The notes beneath the pieces are model-generated. The model was given only the letters and a program-made list of their open reading frames with translations. It did not search any database and was not told the DNA's origin. From positions 62,001 through 126,000 of the forward strand of contig JASEFH010000002.1 of the NCBI GenBank assembly GCA_030019205.1: a DNA stretch of 64,000 bases, written 5' to 3'. This DNA is from Methanomicrobiales archaeon. Lineage in GTDB: Archaea > Halobacteriota > Methanomicrobia > Methanomicrobiales > JACTUA01. A program made the position numbers and the translations under genes. The first letter of the stretch is position 1, and each line of letters starts with the position of its first letter. Shown one piece after another: positions 576-53,835 of the stretch.

Positions 576-1664
576 ATGCCCTCCTGGTCGCGGAACCCGC
601 TGATCTTCGGCCTGATGACCGCCGCCCTCTTCGGCGTCGGCACGCCATTCTCCAAGCTGCTGCTCTCCGAGGTCCATCCGCTGACCCTCTCCGCCCTCCT
701 CTACATCGGGAGCGGAATCGGGACGCTCGGGCTCCTCCTGCTGGTCACGCGCGACGGAAACGGCAGGGCGCATCGGGAGGCGGCCCTGCAGCGCGGAGAC
801 CTGCCCTGGCTCTGCGGCGTGATCGTATTTGGCGGCTTCCTGGCCCCGATCGCCCTCATGAACGGGCTCGCGAACACCCCTGCGGAGACCGCCGCCCTCC
901 TGCTGAACTTCGAGGCGGTGGCGACGACGCTCATCGCCGCGTCTCTCTTCCGCGAGTCGATCGGGAGCAGGGTCTGGCTGGCGCTCGCGCTCGTCACGGC
1001 GTCCTGCATCATCCTCTCCTGGGACCCGCAGGCGATCGGGGGCATCTCGATCCCGGCGCTCGGAGTGATCCTCTCGACCGTCTTCTGGTCGCTCGACAAC
1101 AACGTCGCCCGCAACATCTCCGCCAAGGATCCGATCGTTATCGTCTCCCTGAAGGGGCTTCTCGGTGGATCGATGGCGTTTGCCGCCGCTCTCATGCTGG
1201 GGGCGGCCTGGCCGGACCTGAACACTACCGTTGCCGCGATGATCCTCGGGTTTACCAGTTTCGGCGGGCTCACGAGCATGCTCTTCATACACGCCCTGCG
1301 GGGGATCGGCACCGCCCGATCCGCATCGCTCCTCGCCGTCTCCCCCCTCTTCGGGGTGACGGTCTCCCTGCTGATCTTCGCGGAGATCCCCGACCTGCGG
1401 TTCTTCCTGGCCGCCCCGGTCATGGCGTGCGGTGTCTACCTGCTCGTCGCCGAACGGCACTCGCACGAGCACCGCCACGAGCCGCTGATCCACGAGCACC
1501 GCCACTGCCACGACGACCTCCACCACAACCACGAGCATTCGGCAGAGACGCCTCCCCCCGGGCCCGATGGCGAGCACTCCCACCTGCACCGCCACCCCGA
1601 GCGGGTGCACGACCATCCGCACCGCCCGGATATCCACCACCGCCACCTGCACCGCAGATCGTAG
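576..1664 (+). CDS. DMT-superfamily (EamA) exporter with histidine-rich C-terminal tail
   Basis: 362 residues. Residues 1-290 hold about ten hydrophobic segments in two EamA-type halves (first half opening with FGVGTPFSKLLL, second after residue about 150), the layout of drug/metabolite transporters. Residues 295-362 are hydrophilic with 23 histidines in 68 residues (HSHEHRHE, HDDLHHNHEH, HLHRHPERVHDHPH), a composition known from metal-handling transporters such as CDF and ZIP proteins but unusual for EamA proteins. By inference the tail binds Zn, Ni or Co, and the protein may export a metal, metal chelate or amino acid. The start ATG is the first in frame after the upstream terminator. It sits between two parts of an amino-acid uptake system and is transcribed away from the operon on the other strand. 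Confidence 0.88.
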   Translation: MPSWSRNPLIFGLMTAALFGVGTPFSKLLLSEVHPLTLSALLYIGSGIGTLGLLLLVTRDGNGRAHREAALQRGDLPWLCGVIVFGGFLAPIALMNGLANTPAETAALLLNFEAVATTLIAASLFRESIGSRVWLALALVTASCIILSWDPQAIGGISIPALGVILSTVFWSLDNNVARNISAKDPIVIVSLKGLLGGSMAFAAALMLGAAWPDLNTTVAAMILGFTSFGGLTSMLFIHALRGIGTARSASLLAVSPLFGVTVSLLIFAEIPDLRFFLAAPVMACGVYLLVAERHSHEHRHEPLIHEHRHCHDDLHHNHEHSAETPPPGPDGEHSHLHRHPERVHDHPHRPDIHHRHLHRRS

Positions 1665-1789
1665 GATGGGGCGGCGGGCAGCCTGCCGTGAACCCGCCCG
1701 GGGCCGCAACCGGTTGTCCGGGGGATGGGCCGGTCTGGCTGTCAGGCCAGCACGGGCGGGAAAAGGGATGGCAGTCCTGAAATTTCCGG

Positions 1790-2476
1790 TTACAGGGTTG
1801 CCCGGCTCTTCCCGTTGAGCATGCCGGGAATGGCGACCCTCTTCTCGAGGAGGTGGACGGCGAGCGTGGTGATGGAGACGAGCGCAAGGTATATCAGCCC
1901 GATCGCCAGGAACGTCTCGGTATAGGTGAAGTACTTCGTCGCCACCAGTTTCCCCGCCCCGCTCAGCTCGACGAGCGTGATCATGTAGGCAAGCGACGAG
2001 TACTTGATCAGATAGATGAACTCATTCGAGAGCCCGGGGATCGCCCTCCGCAATGCCTGGGGGAGCACGATCTCCCGCACGGACTGCATCCGGGTCATTC
2101 CCAGAGCCTGGGCGGCGGTGATCTGGCCTTCTTTTACCGATTTGATGCCGCCACGGATGTACTCCGAGTTGTACGCCGCGTTGCAGAGGACGAAGCCGAT
2201 CACCGAGGCGACGAAGGCGTTGAAGGTGATCCCGATCGAGGGCAGCCCGAAGTAGAGGATGAAGAGCAGGAGGAGGAGCGGGGTGCCCTTGATGAATACA
2301 ACGTAGGCCTTGCAGAGGCGGGAGAGGACCGGACCGCCGTACTGCCGACCGACCGCGATCCCCGTCCCGAGCAGGAGCCCGAACGGTGCAGTCCATGCGA
2401 TGAGCGCGAGCGTGGTCCAGAGACCCTTTACCAGCGCCGGCCCGAGAACCACGGAGAAGTAGGTCGCCGTGTCCAT
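1790..2476 (-). CDS. Polar amino-acid ABC transporter permease (HisM/GlnP type), second copy
   Basis: 228 residues with about five membrane helices and the conserved EAA-loop region (AAQALGMTRMQSVREIVLPQA, residues about 133-153) that docks on the ATPase. Last gene of the four-gene operon 4844-1790; its ATG follows directly on the stop codon of the ATPase gene, without spacing, so translational coupling is likely. Known role of the family: two related permeases form a heterodimer channel for polar amino acids. The sister permease is at 3244-3921. Confidence 0.92.
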   Translation of the reverse strand: MDTATYFSVVLGPALVKGLWTTLALIAWTAPFGLLLGTGIAVGRQYGGPVLSRLCKAYVVFIKGTPLLLLLFILYFGLPSIGITFNAFVASVIGFVLCNAAYNSEYIRGGIKSVKEGQITAAQALGMTRMQSVREIVLPQALRRAIPGLSNEFIYLIKYSSLAYMITLVELSGAGKLVATKYFTYTETFLAIGLIYLALVSITTLAVHLLEKRVAIPGMLNGKSRATL

Positions 2477-3238
2477 CTACGCCCTCCGCTCCAGGACGTC
2501 CGAGAACTGGTTCAGGTAGCCCTTCGCCCGTGTGAACCGCGGATCATAGAGGAGGTCGTTCGGCGACCCCTGCTCCACGATCCTGCCCTTCTCCATGAAG
2601 AGGATCTCGGTCGCAACCGAGCAGGCAAACCCCATCTCGTGGGTGACGACGAGCATGGTCATCCCCTGCCGCGCGAGCTTCTTCATCACCTCCAGCACCT
2701 CCCGCGTCAGCTCCGGGTCGAGCGCGGACGTCGGTTCGTCGAACATGATCACATCAGGATCCATGGCGAGCGCACGCGCGATGGAAACCCGCTGCGCCTG
2801 CCCGCCAGAGAGTTCGGCCGGGTAGTGGTCCGCCCACTCCTCCATTCCCACCTGGCGGAGTTCGAAGAGCGCCTTCTCACGGGCCGCCTTCGGATCCATC
2901 TTCTTCACCTTGAGAAGCGCGATCTCCACGTTCCGCAGTGCCGTCAGGTGATCGAAGAGGAAGAAGTTCTGGAAGACCATCCCGATCCGCTGGCGGTAGT
3001 GGTGGATACGGTGGCCGCAGTTCGTCACCTCCTCCCCGTGCAGCCAGACCCTGCCCCGATCGGGCGGGGTGAGCTGGTTGATGCAGCGAAGAAGCGTGCT
3101 CTTCCCCGTCCCCGACGGGCCGATGAAGACCTTGGTCTCTCCCTTGTGCACCTCGAAGGAGACACCCCGCAGGATCTCCTTGTCCCCAAACGACTTGTGG
3201 ATGTCCTCCACCCGCAGAATGCACCTGTCGTCTTCCAT
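2477..3238 (-). CDS. Polar amino-acid ABC transporter ATP-binding protein (GlnQ/HisP type)
   Basis: 253 residues. Walker A GPSGTGKST near residue 40, signature LSGGQAQRVSIARAL near 140, Walker B DVIMFDEPTSALDP near 160, and the switch histidine in VVTHEMGFA. Length and motifs match the GlnQ/HisP/ArtP group. It lies between the two permease genes and shares tight spacing with both, forming the energising subunit of the transporter. Confidence 0.95.
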   Translation of the reverse strand: MEDDRCILRVEDIHKSFGDKEILRGVSFEVHKGETKVFIGPSGTGKSTLLRCINQLTPPDRGRVWLHGEEVTNCGHRIHHYRQRIGMVFQNFFLFDHLTALRNVEIALLKVKKMDPKAAREKALFELRQVGMEEWADHYPAELSGGQAQRVSIARALAMDPDVIMFDEPTSALDPELTREVLEVMKKLARQGMTMLVVTHEMGFACSVATEILFMEKGRIVEQGSPNDLLYDPRFTRAKGYLNQFSDVLERRA

Positions 3239-3243
3239 TGGAT

Positions 3244-3921
3244 CTAGCCCTCCGTCGTCGCAAAGCCGGGAATGGCGATCCTACTCTCCGCGTAGGTGAT
3301 CACCCGCATACCGGCGTAGTTCAGCAGGATAAAGATGAACGCGCACACCAGGTAGATGGGAATGGTCACGTAGGTCTGCGCCACGATCTGGGACGTCCGC
3401 GTGAGGAGTTCGGCCACGCCGATCGCATAGCAGACGGCGGAGTCGGTCAGGATCTCAGGGTACTCGTTGGACCAGCCGGGCAGCGCGATGCGGACCGCCT
3501 GCGGCAGGATGATGGAGCGGATCGCGGTGCCGCGGGGCATCCCGAGAGACATGGCGGCGATCATCTGCCCCTCCCCAATGGACTGAATCGCCCCGCGGAA
3601 TATCTGGGACTGGTAGGCAGCCCCGCGAAGCCCGAGCACCACCGCTCCCACCACGAAGGCCGAGAGATCCTGAAGGCCTATGCTGGGGAAGATCCCGAAG
3701 TAGAAGAGGAAGAGCAGCACCAGGATGGGCAGACCGCGGAAGAACCATACGTAGGCGGCGGTCGCGGCCCGGATCGGCCACCCGCCGTACACCTGCGCCA
3801 GAGCCATGGGCAGCCCGAGAGTCACCCCGATGAAGAGCGCAATACCCACCAGCCCGAGGGTGACGCCGATGCCCGTCAGCAGATACGGCGTCCAGATGGA
3901 AAGGATCTCAAAAACATCCAT
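3244..3921 (-). CDS. Polar amino-acid ABC transporter permease, first copy
   Basis: 225 residues, about five membrane helices, EAA-loop GQMIAAMSLGMPRGTAIRSI at residues about 124-144. It is only moderately similar to the permease at 1790-2476, as expected for the two halves of a heterodimeric channel. Follows the binding-protein gene (gap about 130 bp holding a possible T-rich region) and precedes the ATPase by 5 bp. Confidence 0.92.
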   Translation of the reverse strand: MDVFEILSIWTPYLLTGIGVTLGLVGIALFIGVTLGLPMALAQVYGGWPIRAATAAYVWFFRGLPILVLLFLFYFGIFPSIGLQDLSAFVVGAVVLGLRGAAYQSQIFRGAIQSIGEGQMIAAMSLGMPRGTAIRSIILPQAVRIALPGWSNEYPEILTDSAVCYAIGVAELLTRTSQIVAQTYVTIPIYLVCAFIFILLNYAGMRVITYAESRIAIPGFATTEG

Positions 3922-4049
3922 GCATTCGTCACCCGGAAATCGCCCCGCCCGGTGTGCCAGCGGATGGAACGGGGGAATCGATAGTAATAGTGTTGTGGGG
4001 ATGGAAAATATGTCTTGTTATTTTATCCTCAAAAACAGGAGATGGGCGT

Positions 4050-4844
4050 TCAATCCATCTCGTACTTCTGCTTCAGATCCTCCCAGTAGGGATCCGCCAT
4101 CAGCTCGGTGAGCCCCTCGTTGATGGTCGCCAGGAGCTCGGGATCGGTCTTGCGGACGGCGACCCCGTAGAGCTCTCCCGTGTCGATCTCGCCGATGATG
4201 TGCAGGGGCTTACCGGCAATCGCATCGAGCATCGGCGGGGTGTCGTAGATGATCGCATCCACGCGCTTGTTCTGCAGGTCGGTGGCAGCGAGCGGGAAGC
4301 TGTCGTAGAGGACCAACCTGTTCTCCGCCATCAGGCCCTTCTCGATCAGGTTCTCCTCGACCCACATCGCTCCCGTCGTGCCCCGCTGGGCGCCTACTTT
4401 CAGGGTGCCGCCCAGGAAGTCGTCCATGGTGAAGTCCGTGTCGTCGTGGATGGAGACGGACTGGTTCACCTGCCAGTAGGGGATGCTGAAGTTCACCTGC
4501 TGGGCGCGCTCCTCGGTGATCGTCATACCGGAGTAGATCAGGTCGATCTTGCCCGCAATGAGCGAGGGGATGATTCCGTCCCAGGCAGTCGGCTGGAACG
4601 TGACCTTGAGCCCCTTCTTCTCGGCGATCCAGCGCATCGAGTCCACGTCGAACCCCGCGACGCTGCCGTCCGGGTTGACGTAGCTGTAGGGGGGATACTC
4701 TCCGTCGATGCCGACGATCAGCGTCTTCTGCTGGGGCCCCGTCGTCTGGGATGGGGTCTCTGTCTGCGTGCTGGCACAGCCCGCGACGAGGGCTGCCACT
4801 ACTGCCATGAGCACCAGAACCGGAAAAAGGACTTTCCTGTTCAT
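4050..4844 (-). CDS. Polar amino-acid binding lipoprotein of the ABC transporter
   Basis: 264 residues. N-terminal signal with lipobox LVAGC (Cys near residue 23) followed by a Thr/Gln-rich linker, then family 3 solute-binding domain starting TLIVGIDGEYPPYSY. First gene of the operon; the promoter is an AT-rich stretch (tttaataaatgctaaatag on the minus strand, near 4868-4888) about 25-40 bp before the start. Closely related to the partial gene at the left edge, so one duplication produced two binding proteins, now on opposite strands around the exporter gene. Confidence 0.95.
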   Translation of the reverse strand: MNRKVLFPVLVLMAVVAALVAGCASTQTETPSQTTGPQQKTLIVGIDGEYPPYSYVNPDGSVAGFDVDSMRWIAEKKGLKVTFQPTAWDGIIPSLIAGKIDLIYSGMTITEERAQQVNFSIPYWQVNQSVSIHDDTDFTMDDFLGGTLKVGAQRGTTGAMWVEENLIEKGLMAENRLVLYDSFPLAATDLQNKRVDAIIYDTPPMLDAIAGKPLHIIGEIDTGELYGVAVRKTDPELLATINEGLTELMADPYWEDLKQKYEMD

Positions 4845-5225
4845 GATCGAACAGTACGGAGCCCACGCTATTTAGCATTTATTAAACTGATGGCTGTGTC
4901 GCACGATTGAAAATCGCCCTGTCCGTGGGTTGAAGGCGGTTCTGCTCGGGTTGCACGTCTGCCGGAGGGGTGCGGATCAGCCGTGAGATCCCGCGGTCAG
5001 GGCATCGCACACGGTTGGCATAGATTCAGGTTCGGGAGAGTGTACCGCGCTCTTCTCGGCCGCCTCCCCGGCAGTGGGCGGAACACTGGGAGAGCGGGGC
5101 TTCTGCACAGCGCCCGGTATGCCACAGCCAGCAGCACGGTTCGCCGCGAGCGGTGCAAAGCCGCCCCGAATCGTATACGGTTAAATGCCGGATCGGAGAA
5201 CCTACACCCGGCAGGGATACGCGAG
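4845..5225. other. Intergenic region between divergent genes
   Basis: Holds the minus-strand promoter of the binding-protein operon (AT-rich box near 4868-4888) and, close to the right end, a tatacggttaaat stretch (about 5174-5186) that could serve the ADP-ribosyltransferase-like gene. An open frame runs through its right part in phase with the downstream gene, but it reads as low-complexity Arg/Gly-rich protein and I do not consider it coding. Confidence 0.5.
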
Positions 5226-5849
5226 ATGGTGTTCTGGGCAGAAAGAAGAGACCTCTCGAACAGGGAGATGGACGCGATCCGGGAGTGGATCCGGTCCGGC
5301 CACGGGGTCAATGTCTACCTGCGGGACCCGGGGCAGCTGCCCCCGGAGTACCGTACCGGGATGCGGGCGTACGTGCGTGCGCTGGATTCGGCCATCTACC
5401 GGTCGAGGCTGGACAGGGAGTCGGTCGATAGGATCCGGGCGGTGCAGGGCGGAAGGGCTCCGCAGGTGTTCAGGGGCATGGCCGGCCCGGACGCCGGGGC
5501 GGTGCTGGAGCGCGTGCGGACCGGCGTAGAGCGGTTCAGGGATGCCGGCTACCAGCCCTTCACGGCGAGGAGGGACGTCGTGACGGAGTGCATCTGGAGC
5601 GCTGCAGAGCCCCGGGTGGTGTTCGCGGTGCCCTGCACCGTGGGGGAGACCGCGCTGTACATCGGCGGGAGCGATCACGAGGTGATCTTCCCCCGGAACA
5701 CCGCCTGGCGGGTCCGCAGCACCGAAGAGATCGTCCTGGCGGACGGGGTTGCCACCCTCGTGCGGATGGGGCGGGAGCCTGCAGAAGGGCAGGGCGGAGA
5801 GCGAAGAACGGCCGGAGGGGGTGTCCGATGGGCCGGAGTGAAAGGCTGA
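5226..5849 (+). CDS. ADP-ribosyltransferase-fold protein (ART exoenzyme type)
   Basis: 207 residues from the chosen ATG. The order of motifs follows the ADP-ribosyltransferase exoenzyme family: an N-terminal helical part (AIREWIRSGHGVNVYLRD, about 17-33; YVRALDSAIYRSRL, 49-62), then the NAD-binding arginine strand VFRGM (Arg83), a Y..F.[TS] strand at 109-115 (usually YxxFxSTS, here YQPFTAR), and the last strand HEVIFPRNTAWRV with the presumed catalytic Glu152 (151-163). The upstream residue of the ExE/QxE motif is Asp150, so the usual ExE reads DHE. No signal peptide or membrane segment, so it acts in the cytosol or needs another route out. An earlier in-frame start at 4983 exists, but that extension looks non-coding. 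Overlaps the next gene by 22 bp. Whether it is active, and its target, are unknown. Confidence 0.75.
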   Translation: MVFWAERRDLSNREMDAIREWIRSGHGVNVYLRDPGQLPPEYRTGMRAYVRALDSAIYRSRLDRESVDRIRAVQGGRAPQVFRGMAGPDAGAVLERVRTGVERFRDAGYQPFTARRDVVTECIWSAAEPRVVFAVPCTVGETALYIGGSDHEVIFPRNTAWRVRSTEEIVLADGVATLVRMGREPAEGQGGERRTAGGGVRWAGVKG

Positions 5850-50864: not shown

Positions 50865-51788
50865 ATGGACGAACCAGTACAGCAGGTGCGGATTCTGCCC
50901 GGCATGAGCGTCGCCGATCTGGTGGAGCAGATGGGGAGTGCCGGAGCGTTCAATGCGGGCGCTCTCTATCGCGCCTCGCAGATCTACGAGGACATGCTGC
51001 GGGACGCATCCGCCACGCGGTTCTTCGGGCTTGCCGGGGCGATGGTGCCGGCAGGCATGGGCGGGATCGTCGCGGACCTGATCGAGCGCGGCCACATCGA
51101 CGTGCTCGTCTCGACCGGCGCGAACATGGTCCACGACATCATCGAGGCGATCGGCTGCCGCCACCTCCACGGCACTGCCAGCGGCTCGGACACGGAGCTC
51201 CGCCACCGGGAGATCAACCGCATCTACGACGTCTTCCTCCCGAATGATGCATTCTGCAGGTTCGAGGAGTTCGTCCAGGGCGTATTCGCCGGGCTCGAAG
51301 AAGGTTCGGCGCACTCCATCAGCGGACTGCTCCGGCGGATCGGGGAGAACCTGGATAGCGGCATCCTGGCTGCCGCGGCACGGCAGAACGTCCCCGTCTT
51401 CTGCCCGGCGATCCAGGACTCCATGATCGGGCTCCAGTACTGGCTCTTTCGAGAGACGCGGAAGGTGCCGGTCGATGCCTTCCTGGACATGAAGGAGATC
51501 ATCGACCGCTGCTTCGCTGCGGAGCGGGCGGGGGTGCTGATCCTGGGCGGCGGCGTGCCCAAGAACTACATCCTCCAGTCCATGCTCCTCGCTCCGAAGG
51601 GGTTCGACTACGCGGTCCAGCTCACCGGCGACCGTCCCGACCTCGGGGGTCTCTCGGGGGCAACGCTGGACGAAGCCCGCTCCTGGGGAAAACTCCAGGA
51701 GGAGGCGGTATCCGCGACCGTCTACGGGGATGCGACCATCACCTTCCCCCTGCTGGTGGCCGCCGTCCTGGAGAGGCTGCAAAGATGA
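50865..51788 (+). CDS. dys: Deoxyhypusine synthase-like protein
   Basis: 307 residues. VSTGANMVHDIIEAIGCRHLHG and LGGGVPKNYILQSMLL are NAD- and spermidine-binding segments; the catalytic lysine region reads EARSWGKLQEEA (Lys near 285). It modifies aIF5A lysine to deoxyhypusine using a polyamine. The pyrF ATG overlaps its stop by 4 bp. Confidence 0.94.
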   Translation: MDEPVQQVRILPGMSVADLVEQMGSAGAFNAGALYRASQIYEDMLRDASATRFFGLAGAMVPAGMGGIVADLIERGHIDVLVSTGANMVHDIIEAIGCRHLHGTASGSDTELRHREINRIYDVFLPNDAFCRFEEFVQGVFAGLEEGSAHSISGLLRRIGENLDSGILAAAARQNVPVFCPAIQDSMIGLQYWLFRETRKVPVDAFLDMKEIIDRCFAAERAGVLILGGGVPKNYILQSMLLAPKGFDYAVQLTGDRPDLGGLSGATLDEARSWGKLQEEAVSATVYGDATITFPLLVAAVLERLQR

Positions 51789-52420
51789 CGGACCTGATCC
51801 TCGCCCTGGACGTGCGCGACCCGGCGCAGGCGGTCGCGGTCGCGACCGCCTGCGCGCCCTTCATCGATGCCGTCAAGATCGGCTATCCTCTGGTGCTCGC
51901 CAGCGGCCTGCGCATCGTCGGCGAGCTGGGCGGACTCGGACTCCCCGTCATCGCCGACTTCAAGGTGGCGGACATCCCGAACACCAACCGCCTCATCTGC
52001 GAGACCGTCTTCTCCGCCGGATGCGACGCCGTGATCGCCCACGCATTCGGCGGTTCGGACGCGCTCTCCGCCTGCGTGGAGGTGGCCCACCGCCACGGAG
52101 GAGCCTGCTACGCCGTGGCGGAGATGAGTCACCCCGGGGCGACCGAGTTCTTCTGCCCCGAGACGGCCGACCGGCTGGCGGCGCTGGCGGTCGCGGTCGG
52201 TGCGGACGGGATCATCGCGCCCGCGACCCGCCCGGAGCGTGTGCTCCGCCTCCGCGACGTCGTGGGAGGGCTGAAGATCTACTCCCCGGGCGTGGGGGCC
52301 CAGGGAGGGGATATCCATGCGATCGCACCCATGGTGGACGGGGTGATCGTGGGCAGAACCCTGTACGAGGCTCCCGATCCAGCGGCTGCGGCAGAGGAGC
52401 TCGGCTGGATCCGCCGATGA
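51785..52420 (+). CDS. pyrF: Orotidine 5'-phosphate decarboxylase
   Basis: 211 residues, archaeal short OMPDC. LILALDVRDPAQA begins the barrel; the catalytic Asp-Lys-Asp set is in VIADFKVADIPNTNR (about 56-70). SPGVGAQGGD and VDGVIVGRTLYEA form the phosphate site. Last step of UMP synthesis. Translationally coupled to dys. Confidence 0.96.
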   Translation: MTDLILALDVRDPAQAVAVATACAPFIDAVKIGYPLVLASGLRIVGELGGLGLPVIADFKVADIPNTNRLICETVFSAGCDAVIAHAFGGSDALSACVEVAHRHGGACYAVAEMSHPGATEFFCPETADRLAALAVAVGADGIIAPATRPERVLRLRDVVGGLKIYSPGVGAQGGDIHAIAPMVDGVIVGRTLYEAPDPAAAAEELGWIRR

Positions 52421-52585: not shown

Positions 52586-52948
52586 ATGGACTGGACACCC
52601 GAACAGCGCGCACTCGCGGAGAAGTACAGGGGTCTCAAGGAGATTCCGGTCGAGGAGCGCAGGTACAAGTGCTATTCCTGCCACCACGTGGTGGACCGTA
52701 TACCCTGCCCGGAGTGCGGGGAGGTGAGCCTCGAGATCATGTGCCCCCTCGATCACTGCGAGTGCTCCCACGACATTGTCACCGGCATCGAGTACTGTCC
52801 TCTCTGCGGCGCAGCCGTTTGCCCGTCCTGCGGGTCCCACGACGTAGTGCAGATCAGCCGGGTGACGGGCTACATGCAGGACGTCTCCGGGTGGAATGCC
52901 GGTAAACAGCAGGAACTGAAAGATCGGGTCCGTTACACGGTGGCATGA
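52586..52948 (+). CDS. Stand-alone NrdD-type zinc/glycyl-radical C-terminal domain
   Basis: 120 residues. N-terminal helix, then cysteine pairs YKCYSCHH (29-32), CPECG (41-44), CPLDHCEC (53-60), CPLCG (71-74) and CPSCG (80-83 region), followed by ISRVTGYMQDVSGWNAGKQQ (about 90-109) and ELKDRVRY. The last 50 residues line up with the C-terminus of class III ribonucleotide reductases (zinc knuckles, then RV.GY..... FNAGKQ.E...R), where the Gly of RVxGY is the radical site; the corresponding Gly here is about residue 95. No catalytic barrel is present in this gene. It may be a spare radical domain, an activase partner, or a regulator. Confidence 0.8.
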   Translation: MDWTPEQRALAEKYRGLKEIPVEERRYKCYSCHHVVDRIPCPECGEVSLEIMCPLDHCECSHDIVTGIEYCPLCGAAVCPSCGSHDVVQISRVTGYMQDVSGWNAGKQQELKDRVRYTVA

Positions 52949-53835
52949 GGTATTTCATCCGGGAGGCGACCCTCTTTCTCCGGGGCGACTTTGTCGGCGC
53001 GAGTACCGCCGTCCATGGCGGTATCGGACGCGTCTCCACGATCTTCAACCACAGCGTTCCTGAAGACTGGGACGGGTCTGATCCCCGTGCCTATATCCAG
53101 CGCCTGGCCCGGCGGGAAGGGTTCGGCGAAGATGCGTTCGGTCTCCTGACGGCTGTTGCGTTGAGCAACCTCTGCATCCTCCAGTACGACATGCTCACGG
53201 TGTTCGTCACCGCAGGGGTGAGAGAATCTGCTCCGGCGCTGCCCGGCACCATCAACCTGATCATCTACAGCCGCGAGGGGCTATCGCCCTCCGCTCTCCT
53301 GGAGACGATCATCGTCGCCACCGAGGCGAAGACCCGGGGGCTGCAGGCGGCGGGCTATTCCTGTACCGGAACTCCGACAGACGCCGTCGTGGTTGCCAGC
53401 GAGGGGGAGGAGAAGCACGTCTACGCCGGGGTTCTCACCGAGGTGGGGAGACGGGTGTATGCCGCCGTCCAGTTCGGCGTGGAGCAGGCGCTGAAGAGGC
53501 ATGCCGGAACAATCCGGAGGGACGCACCCTCCTTCTTCGTATACAGCCGATACGGCGGGGATCACTGGGTGGAATGGAGGGCGGAGGGGTGCCCCTACTA
53601 TCCCTGCCACTTCCCGGGGCAGGTCTGCGACTTCTGCTACTGTCCGTTCTATCCCTGCGGGGATCCGGCTCTTGGCGAACTCGTGGAGAGTTCCACCAGT
53701 GGAGAGATCTGGAGCTGCAGCCGCTGCCATCTTCTCCACCTGCCGGCGGTGGCAGAGTACCTGAAAAGAAACCCGGAGGCAACTCTCCGGGAACTGAAGC
53801 GCTATCGGGACCGCCTGGAAAAGAAGATAAGTTAG
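52945..53835 (+). CDS. cbiZ: Adenosylcobinamide amidohydrolase with cysteine-rich C-terminal domain
   Basis: 296 residues. Residues about 1-195 are CbiZ (typical strands STAVHGGIGRVSTIFNH, GLLTAVALSNLCILQYD and VFVTAGVRESAPAL). Residues about 210-270 are a Cys-rich small domain (CPYYPCHFPGQVCDFCYCPF, CSRCHLLH) known as a partner of CbiZ in methanogens. Salvages cobinamide by cutting off the aminopropanol side chain. Start overlaps the stop of the NrdD-like gene (ATGA), so the pair is co-translated. Confidence 0.92.
   Translation: MRYFIREATLFLRGDFVGASTAVHGGIGRVSTIFNHSVPEDWDGSDPRAYIQRLARREGFGEDAFGLLTAVALSNLCILQYDMLTVFVTAGVRESAPALPGTINLIIYSREGLSPSALLETIIVATEAKTRGLQAAGYSCTGTPTDAVVVASEGEEKHVYAGVLTEVGRRVYAAVQFGVEQALKRHAGTIRRDAPSFFVYSRYGGDHWVEWRAEGCPYYPCHFPGQVCDFCYCPFYPCGDPALGELVESSTSGEIWSCSRCHLLHLPAVAEYLKRNPEATLRELKRYRDRLEKKIS

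Follow-up and report, generated by a model that had tools for sequence, protein, structure and literature searches.

Glycyl-radical enzymes normally keep the radical and the active site on one polypeptide chain. Here we describe a small gene from a stretch of 64,000 nucleotides of a Methanomicrobiales archaeon (GenBank assembly GCA_030019205.1, contig JASEFH010000002.1, positions 62,001 to 126,000), which as a whole is called the window in the following, and which encodes a protein of 120 amino acids (aa). Judged from its sequence, this small gene very probably forms, together with a catalytic chain encoded elsewhere in the genome, an obligate two-gene class III ribonucleotide reductase (RNR) of the NrdD3 type, in which the glycyl radical would be provided in trans. 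The NrdD3 subclass is marked by a QCC(R/A) finger loop without methionine (PMC9669993). The pair described here resembles NrdD3 in its ATP-cone, barrel, beta-A cysteine, QCC(R/A) loop without methionine, four-cysteine zinc site and RVTGY glycine, as well as in an NrdG2-type activase and a redoxin gene beside the catalytic chain. However, while the described class III enzymes that we found have their radical domain at the C-terminus of the catalytic chain, it is encoded here by a separate, unlinked gene, and the small chain carries an extra N-terminal zinc extension. Small stand-alone glycyl-radical domains with an N-terminal extension are also represented by YfiD/GrcA and Y06I of T4, the spare parts of pyruvate formate-lyase (PFL), and spare parts have been validated only for PFL (PMC8683613). 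These proteins belong with PFL and repair an enzyme that has a radical domain itself, whereas the small protein studied here is of the NRDD type (PF13597) and its partner lacks a radical domain in the order Methanomicrobiales. The class II enzyme NrdJa/NrdJb of Pseudomonas was reported to be the only RNR that is split in a non-viral organism (PMC4520616). It likewise consists of a catalytic chain and a separately encoded small C-terminal chain, but it is B12-dependent, bacterial and encoded in one operon, and NrdJb functions in thiol exchange, without carrying a radical; the class II barrel with its adenosylcobalamin cofactor is not found in our split pair, both pieces of which belong to the class III family. 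Finally, phage nrdA and nrdD genes are known to be fragmented, nrdD most often (PMC3653736). These RNR genes are also interrupted into pieces, but the interruptions occur in single phages, many with introns, inteins or homing endonucleases, whereas here one ancient split is maintained across an order. For cellular organisms, we found no split NrdD described in the open literature, and subscription journals may mention one.

The original prediction for this locus, a stand-alone C-terminal domain of a class III RNR that has no catalytic barrel and keeps the zinc cysteines and a presumed radical glycine, is borne out. The PF13597 profile matches residues 66–117 of the small protein with only its positions 506–562 of 562 (E=1e-14), and the NCBIfam NrdD models are matched at their C-terminal end as well; because the Pfam and NCBIfam matches are confined to this end of the NrdD models, the protein is considered to have no barrel. 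The motif ISRVTGY with the presumed radical glycine, Gly95, is followed by GWNAGKQQELKDR, and the four cysteines C71, C74, C79 and C82 align with the zinc site of full-length, fused NrdDs. Both features that mark membership in class III RNR, the radical glycine and the four-cysteine zinc site, are thus found, though on a separate small chain. Approximately 65 residues with further Cys/His groups precede the radical domain, which the fused NrdDs in the alignment do not have, and this N-terminal extension is a candidate docking module. Homologues of the small protein occur throughout the order with 60–83% identity, and wherever a record bearing the gene is named beyond "Euryarchaeota archaeon", it is assigned to Methanomicrobiales. 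Gly95 and the four zinc cysteines of the radical domain are invariant in two alignments of 50 and 48 homologues, in which C29, C32, C41, C44, C53, C60 and H62 of the extension are nearly or fully invariant. Since homologues are found order-wide, the TGY motif is present in all 80 named homologues, and the median pairwise ratio of nonsynonymous to synonymous substitution rates (dN/dS) is approximately 0.16 (46 pairs with dS<1.2), the small open reading frame (ORF) is not a chance one. An AlphaFold model of the small chain alone reaches a mean predicted local distance difference test (pLDDT) score of 72, with residues 102–120 below 50, and a Foldseek search of the PDB with this model gave no match below E=0.001. 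Residues 20–81 (window positions 52643–52828) are weakly similar to zinc modules of the archaeal DNA polymerase D subunit DP2 (E=0.0015), which possibly reflects only the Cys-rich composition and is not taken as functional homology.

The second piece was found by an NRDD profile search of the whole source genome, which is 2.73 Mb in size and 99.6% complete. Exactly two matches were obtained, the window gene (profile positions 506–562) and, encoded on another contig, a chain of 738 aa (P0002; positions 1–516). This catalytic chain is composed of an ATP-cone (PF03477) and the PF13597 barrel with the beta-A cysteine C195 and the finger-loop cysteines C424/C425, and it ends where the radical domain should start, with no radical domain in cis at its C-terminus. 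Its QCCA finger loop agrees with the NrdD3 motif, and it is by this finger loop that the subclass is assigned. An NrdD with its own radical domain was not detected in the genome by this search. One NrdG2-type activase is present (one TIGR02495 match over the cut-off), the catalytic chain gene is immediately preceded by a glutaredoxin-like gene, and a class II RNR is encoded as a separate gene, while both class III pieces match the class III family. At its end, the catalytic nrdD overlaps with a DUF1786 gene (L001, 3297–4337), which Pfam annotates as a putative pyruvate formate-lyase activating enzyme and which is found near the catalytic gene in many, not all, relatives. The two-gene architecture is shared by the order: all 50 catalytic-chain ORFs that were read (48 without duplicates) stop short of the radical domain, approximately 25 residues past GYFAFTRDLTV, in a variable tail, in contrast to the strongly conserved small chain. 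C195, C424 and C425 are present in 50/50 of these chains. The position of the first zinc cysteine, which is kept in 30/30 fused NrdDs, is occupied by Ser in 39 and by Cys in 6 of the 50. Elsewhere in the phylum the radical domain is in cis, and the split has a single origin, the split catalytic chains forming one clade with a support of 100. Truncation of nrdD by assembly was considered and dropped, as the two-piece pattern is order-wide. In some relatives (e.g., G004, G040, and G087), the catalytic nrdD ORFs reach approximately 1,000–2,000 aa and the profile matches are broken near positions 53 and 260, which suggests inteins.

The distribution of both pieces was surveyed in 150 genomes of Methanomicrobiales, including 108 near-complete ones. 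Both pieces are present in 95 of the near-complete genomes and neither in 12, all from genus g18, and a single genome (G085) has the large piece only. Among all 25 sampled g18 genomes the large piece was not found, and the small piece gave only weak matches in reading frames of 879–1,177 aa, which are probably accounted for by the DP2 similarity of residues 20–81. The activase is lost together with the two chains. NrdG2 was found in 122/150 genomes, and the 28 genomes without it comprise three named ones from other genera and 25 further ones, a number equal to the g18 total; eight of the negative genomes are not individually named, and the absence throughout g18 is implied by the counts. A class II RNR is kept in all g18 genomes except G140. 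Conversely, two class II models found no class II RNR in nine genomes that have both pieces (G047, G059, G076, G086, G096, G112, G120, G124, and G148), each of them at least 91% complete, and this number is a lower bound; in G018 the class II match is fragment-like only. G112 matches the complete chromosome CP121470 of Methanoregula sp. SKADARSKE-2. No RNR other than the two-gene enzyme was detected in these nine genomes.

Table 1. Coordinates of the small gene, its sequence features and neighbours in the window, and of the gene pair on a virus contig.
Feature	Position	Strand	Basis and remarks
Predicted stand-alone glycyl-radical subunit of class III RNR	52586..52948	+	120 aa; partial PF13597 match and intact homologues order-wide
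Presumed radical glycine Gly95, codon GGC	52868..52870	+	in ISRVTGY, class III radical-glycine motif
C71xxC74....C79xxC82, canonical NrdD zinc site on separate chain	52796..52831	+	invariant in homologues; aligns with zinc site of fused NrdDs
N-terminal extension, C29xxC32/C41xxC44 and C53/C60/H62	52670..52771	+	outside PF13597 match
cbiZ, adenosylcobinamide amidohydrolase with Cys-rich zinc-finger (zf)-like domain	52945..53835	+	PF01955, E=8e-39
pyrF, orotidine-5'-phosphate decarboxylase, upstream neighbour	51785..52420	+	Pfam/NCBIfam; upstream in 20/20 loci compared
Deoxyhypusine synthase, member of conserved block	50865..51788	+	Pfam/NCBIfam; locus comparison
Small radical-domain gene, IMG/VR contig L264 (135 kb)	1493-1789		98 aa
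Radical-domain-less nrdD, virus contig L264	2001-4016		211 nucleotides downstream of small gene

Radical-domain genes were also found on virus contigs. On contig L264 both halves are neighbours in a nucleotide-metabolism cassette, in which the radical-domain gene and the radical-domain-less nrdD are followed in a row by FeThRed_B-like and deoxycytidine monophosphate (dCMP) deaminase-like genes (1493–5337). The small gene alone was found, within the stretch examined, in the virus contigs L226, L257, L227, L253, and L254, with a terminase-like ORF nearby in L226 (confirmed by Pfam) and L257 (by inspection), and a baseplate J gene nearby in L227; no other NRDD match was found on the records of L226 and L227, which may be fragments. 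A fused NrdD is encoded in the virus contigs L261 and L262. Moreover, small ORFs with the motif SR(V/I)xGYxRPxxxWNAGKQ, which have no NrdD-type zinc cysteine pairs, occur in L228, L229, L230, and L258 and by their sequence represent a different type of miniature radical domain. The families f8 (L232, L233, L234, L235, L236, and L237) and f24 (L238 and L239) have stand-alone radical-domain proteins whose N-terminus differs. In a tree of only 84 columns, the stand-alone domains of the order, of the viruses and of f8/f24 are separated from all fused domains with a branch support of 100/99. Because an intact NrdD is likewise present in the f8 and f24 genomes that were checked, their stand-alone domains could be true spare parts for class III RNR. 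Two alternative scenarios exist for the origin of the split: either a spare part existed first, followed by loss of the cis domain in the order, or the gene was split within the order and then spread, perhaps with viruses. In G203 the stand-alone domain (L240, 2819–3160) looks degenerate and ends with GYLSTVAGWLERVKKAGIEG, and a class II RNR gene follows directly downstream (3403–5799).

A spare part in the way of YfiD was also one of the two roles initially proposed for the small protein of the window itself; as such, it would replace the radical domain of an oxygen-cleaved NrdD. The similar size and build with a long N-terminal extension and a radical domain, the coexistence of its relatives with intact NrdD in f8 and f24, and the suggestion that spare parts exist for glycyl-radical enzymes besides PFL (PMC8683613) fit this explanation. 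However, because the profile search detected no intact NrdD in the genome, there is nothing for the domain to be spare for, and none of the catalytic chains read across the order has a radical domain of its own; one extra complete NrdD, distantly related, of 569 aa and with its own radical domain, stands beside the split pair in G001 only (L128). Furthermore, the genome has no match to the PFL-type Gly_radical domain PF01228, and a PFL-type glycyl-radical enzyme was not found in 13 of the 15 genomes checked, the source genome among them. For this genome the spare-part role is therefore rejected as very unlikely.

The other proposed role was a B12/radical switch, based on the overlap of the small gene with cbiZ. 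The genes in the window are arranged in the order deoxyhypusine synthase, pyrF, small gene, cbiZ, DUF1858 (opposite strand), and an RPA-like gene, and the predicted overlap of 4 nucleotides (ATGA) between the stop of the small gene and the start of cbiZ was confirmed. This neighbourhood is conserved: cbiZ directly follows the small gene in 50/50 loci and in 77/77 named loci with enough sequence, with the ATGA overlap in 61 of these 77. The adjacency is also present in four genomes without class II RNR (loci L108, L110, L111, and L112), and because it persists there, a simple switch between a B12-dependent and a B12-free RNR fails to explain it. In another explanation, the radical domain would have been repurposed, e.g., as a zinc regulator coupled to cbiZ and B12, with the truncated NrdD being inactive or doing something else. 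The conserved adjacency, the additional zinc-binding groups and the class II RNR in most genomes are in favor of repurposing, which is nevertheless just as improbable as the spare part, considering that Gly95, the zinc cysteines and the catalytic C195, C424 and C425 are invariant, that both chains and NrdG2 vanish together in g18, that no other RNR was found in the nine near-complete genomes, and that the adjacency is kept where class II RNR is absent. Joining of the two products by trans-splicing, either of the proteins or of the RNAs, for which the presumed inteins of the catalytic nrdD ORFs in several relatives could be adduced, is the least credible explanation, since the catalytic chain ends in its variable tail of approximately 25 aa, the small chain begins with conserved zinc modules, no intein-like half is seen at either end, and the profile breaks lie away from the split site.

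Several points weigh against an obligate two-gene RNR and should be considered. We infer the complex, the radical and the activity, as the case is built on sequence. In G085 (93% complete) the small piece was not detected beside the large one, most genomes also carry a class II RNR so that essentiality is not general, and the two genes are unlinked in archaea, lying on different contigs here and more than 0.8 Mb apart in G112. The low AlphaFold confidence at residues 102–120 would fit a partner-dependent domain and proves nothing. Under the two-gene reading, the small zinc protein would dock via its extra N-terminal zinc modules at the place taken by the C-terminal domain of an ordinary NrdD, and the catalytic partner would supply the ATP-cone, the ten-stranded barrel, C195 of beta-A and C424/C425 of the QCCA finger loop. 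The radical S-adenosylmethionine activase NrdG2 would generate the radical on Gly95, and this glycyl radical would in turn, across the interface of the two subunits, produce the thiyl radical in the finger loop for catalysis in trans. The nucleoside triphosphate would then be reduced, and the cysteines might be regenerated by the glutaredoxin-like protein encoded upstream or by a ferredoxin-disulfide-reductase system. It is also conceivable, if rather doubtful, that the radical subunit is a mobile and exchangeable part, which is charged by NrdG2 off the catalytic chain and docks reversibly as in a two-component system such as class I with NrdB; viruses might then bring their own radical subunit to take over the deoxynucleoside triphosphate synthesis of the host, and the cis domain might have been lost after a spare-part stage that is still seen in f8/f24.

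Among cellular lineages this would, as far as the literature found shows, be the first case of a class III RNR that is split. Surveys of NrdD that demand a full-length chain misjudge a whole order of methanogens. If the two-gene reading is true, a natural essential pair would allow radical installation, docking and the transfer to the thiyl radical to be studied and titrated apart from each other, and it would be a concrete example of the emergence of a detachable radical subunit, either from a spare part that became an obligate part or by gene fission and virus-borne spread.
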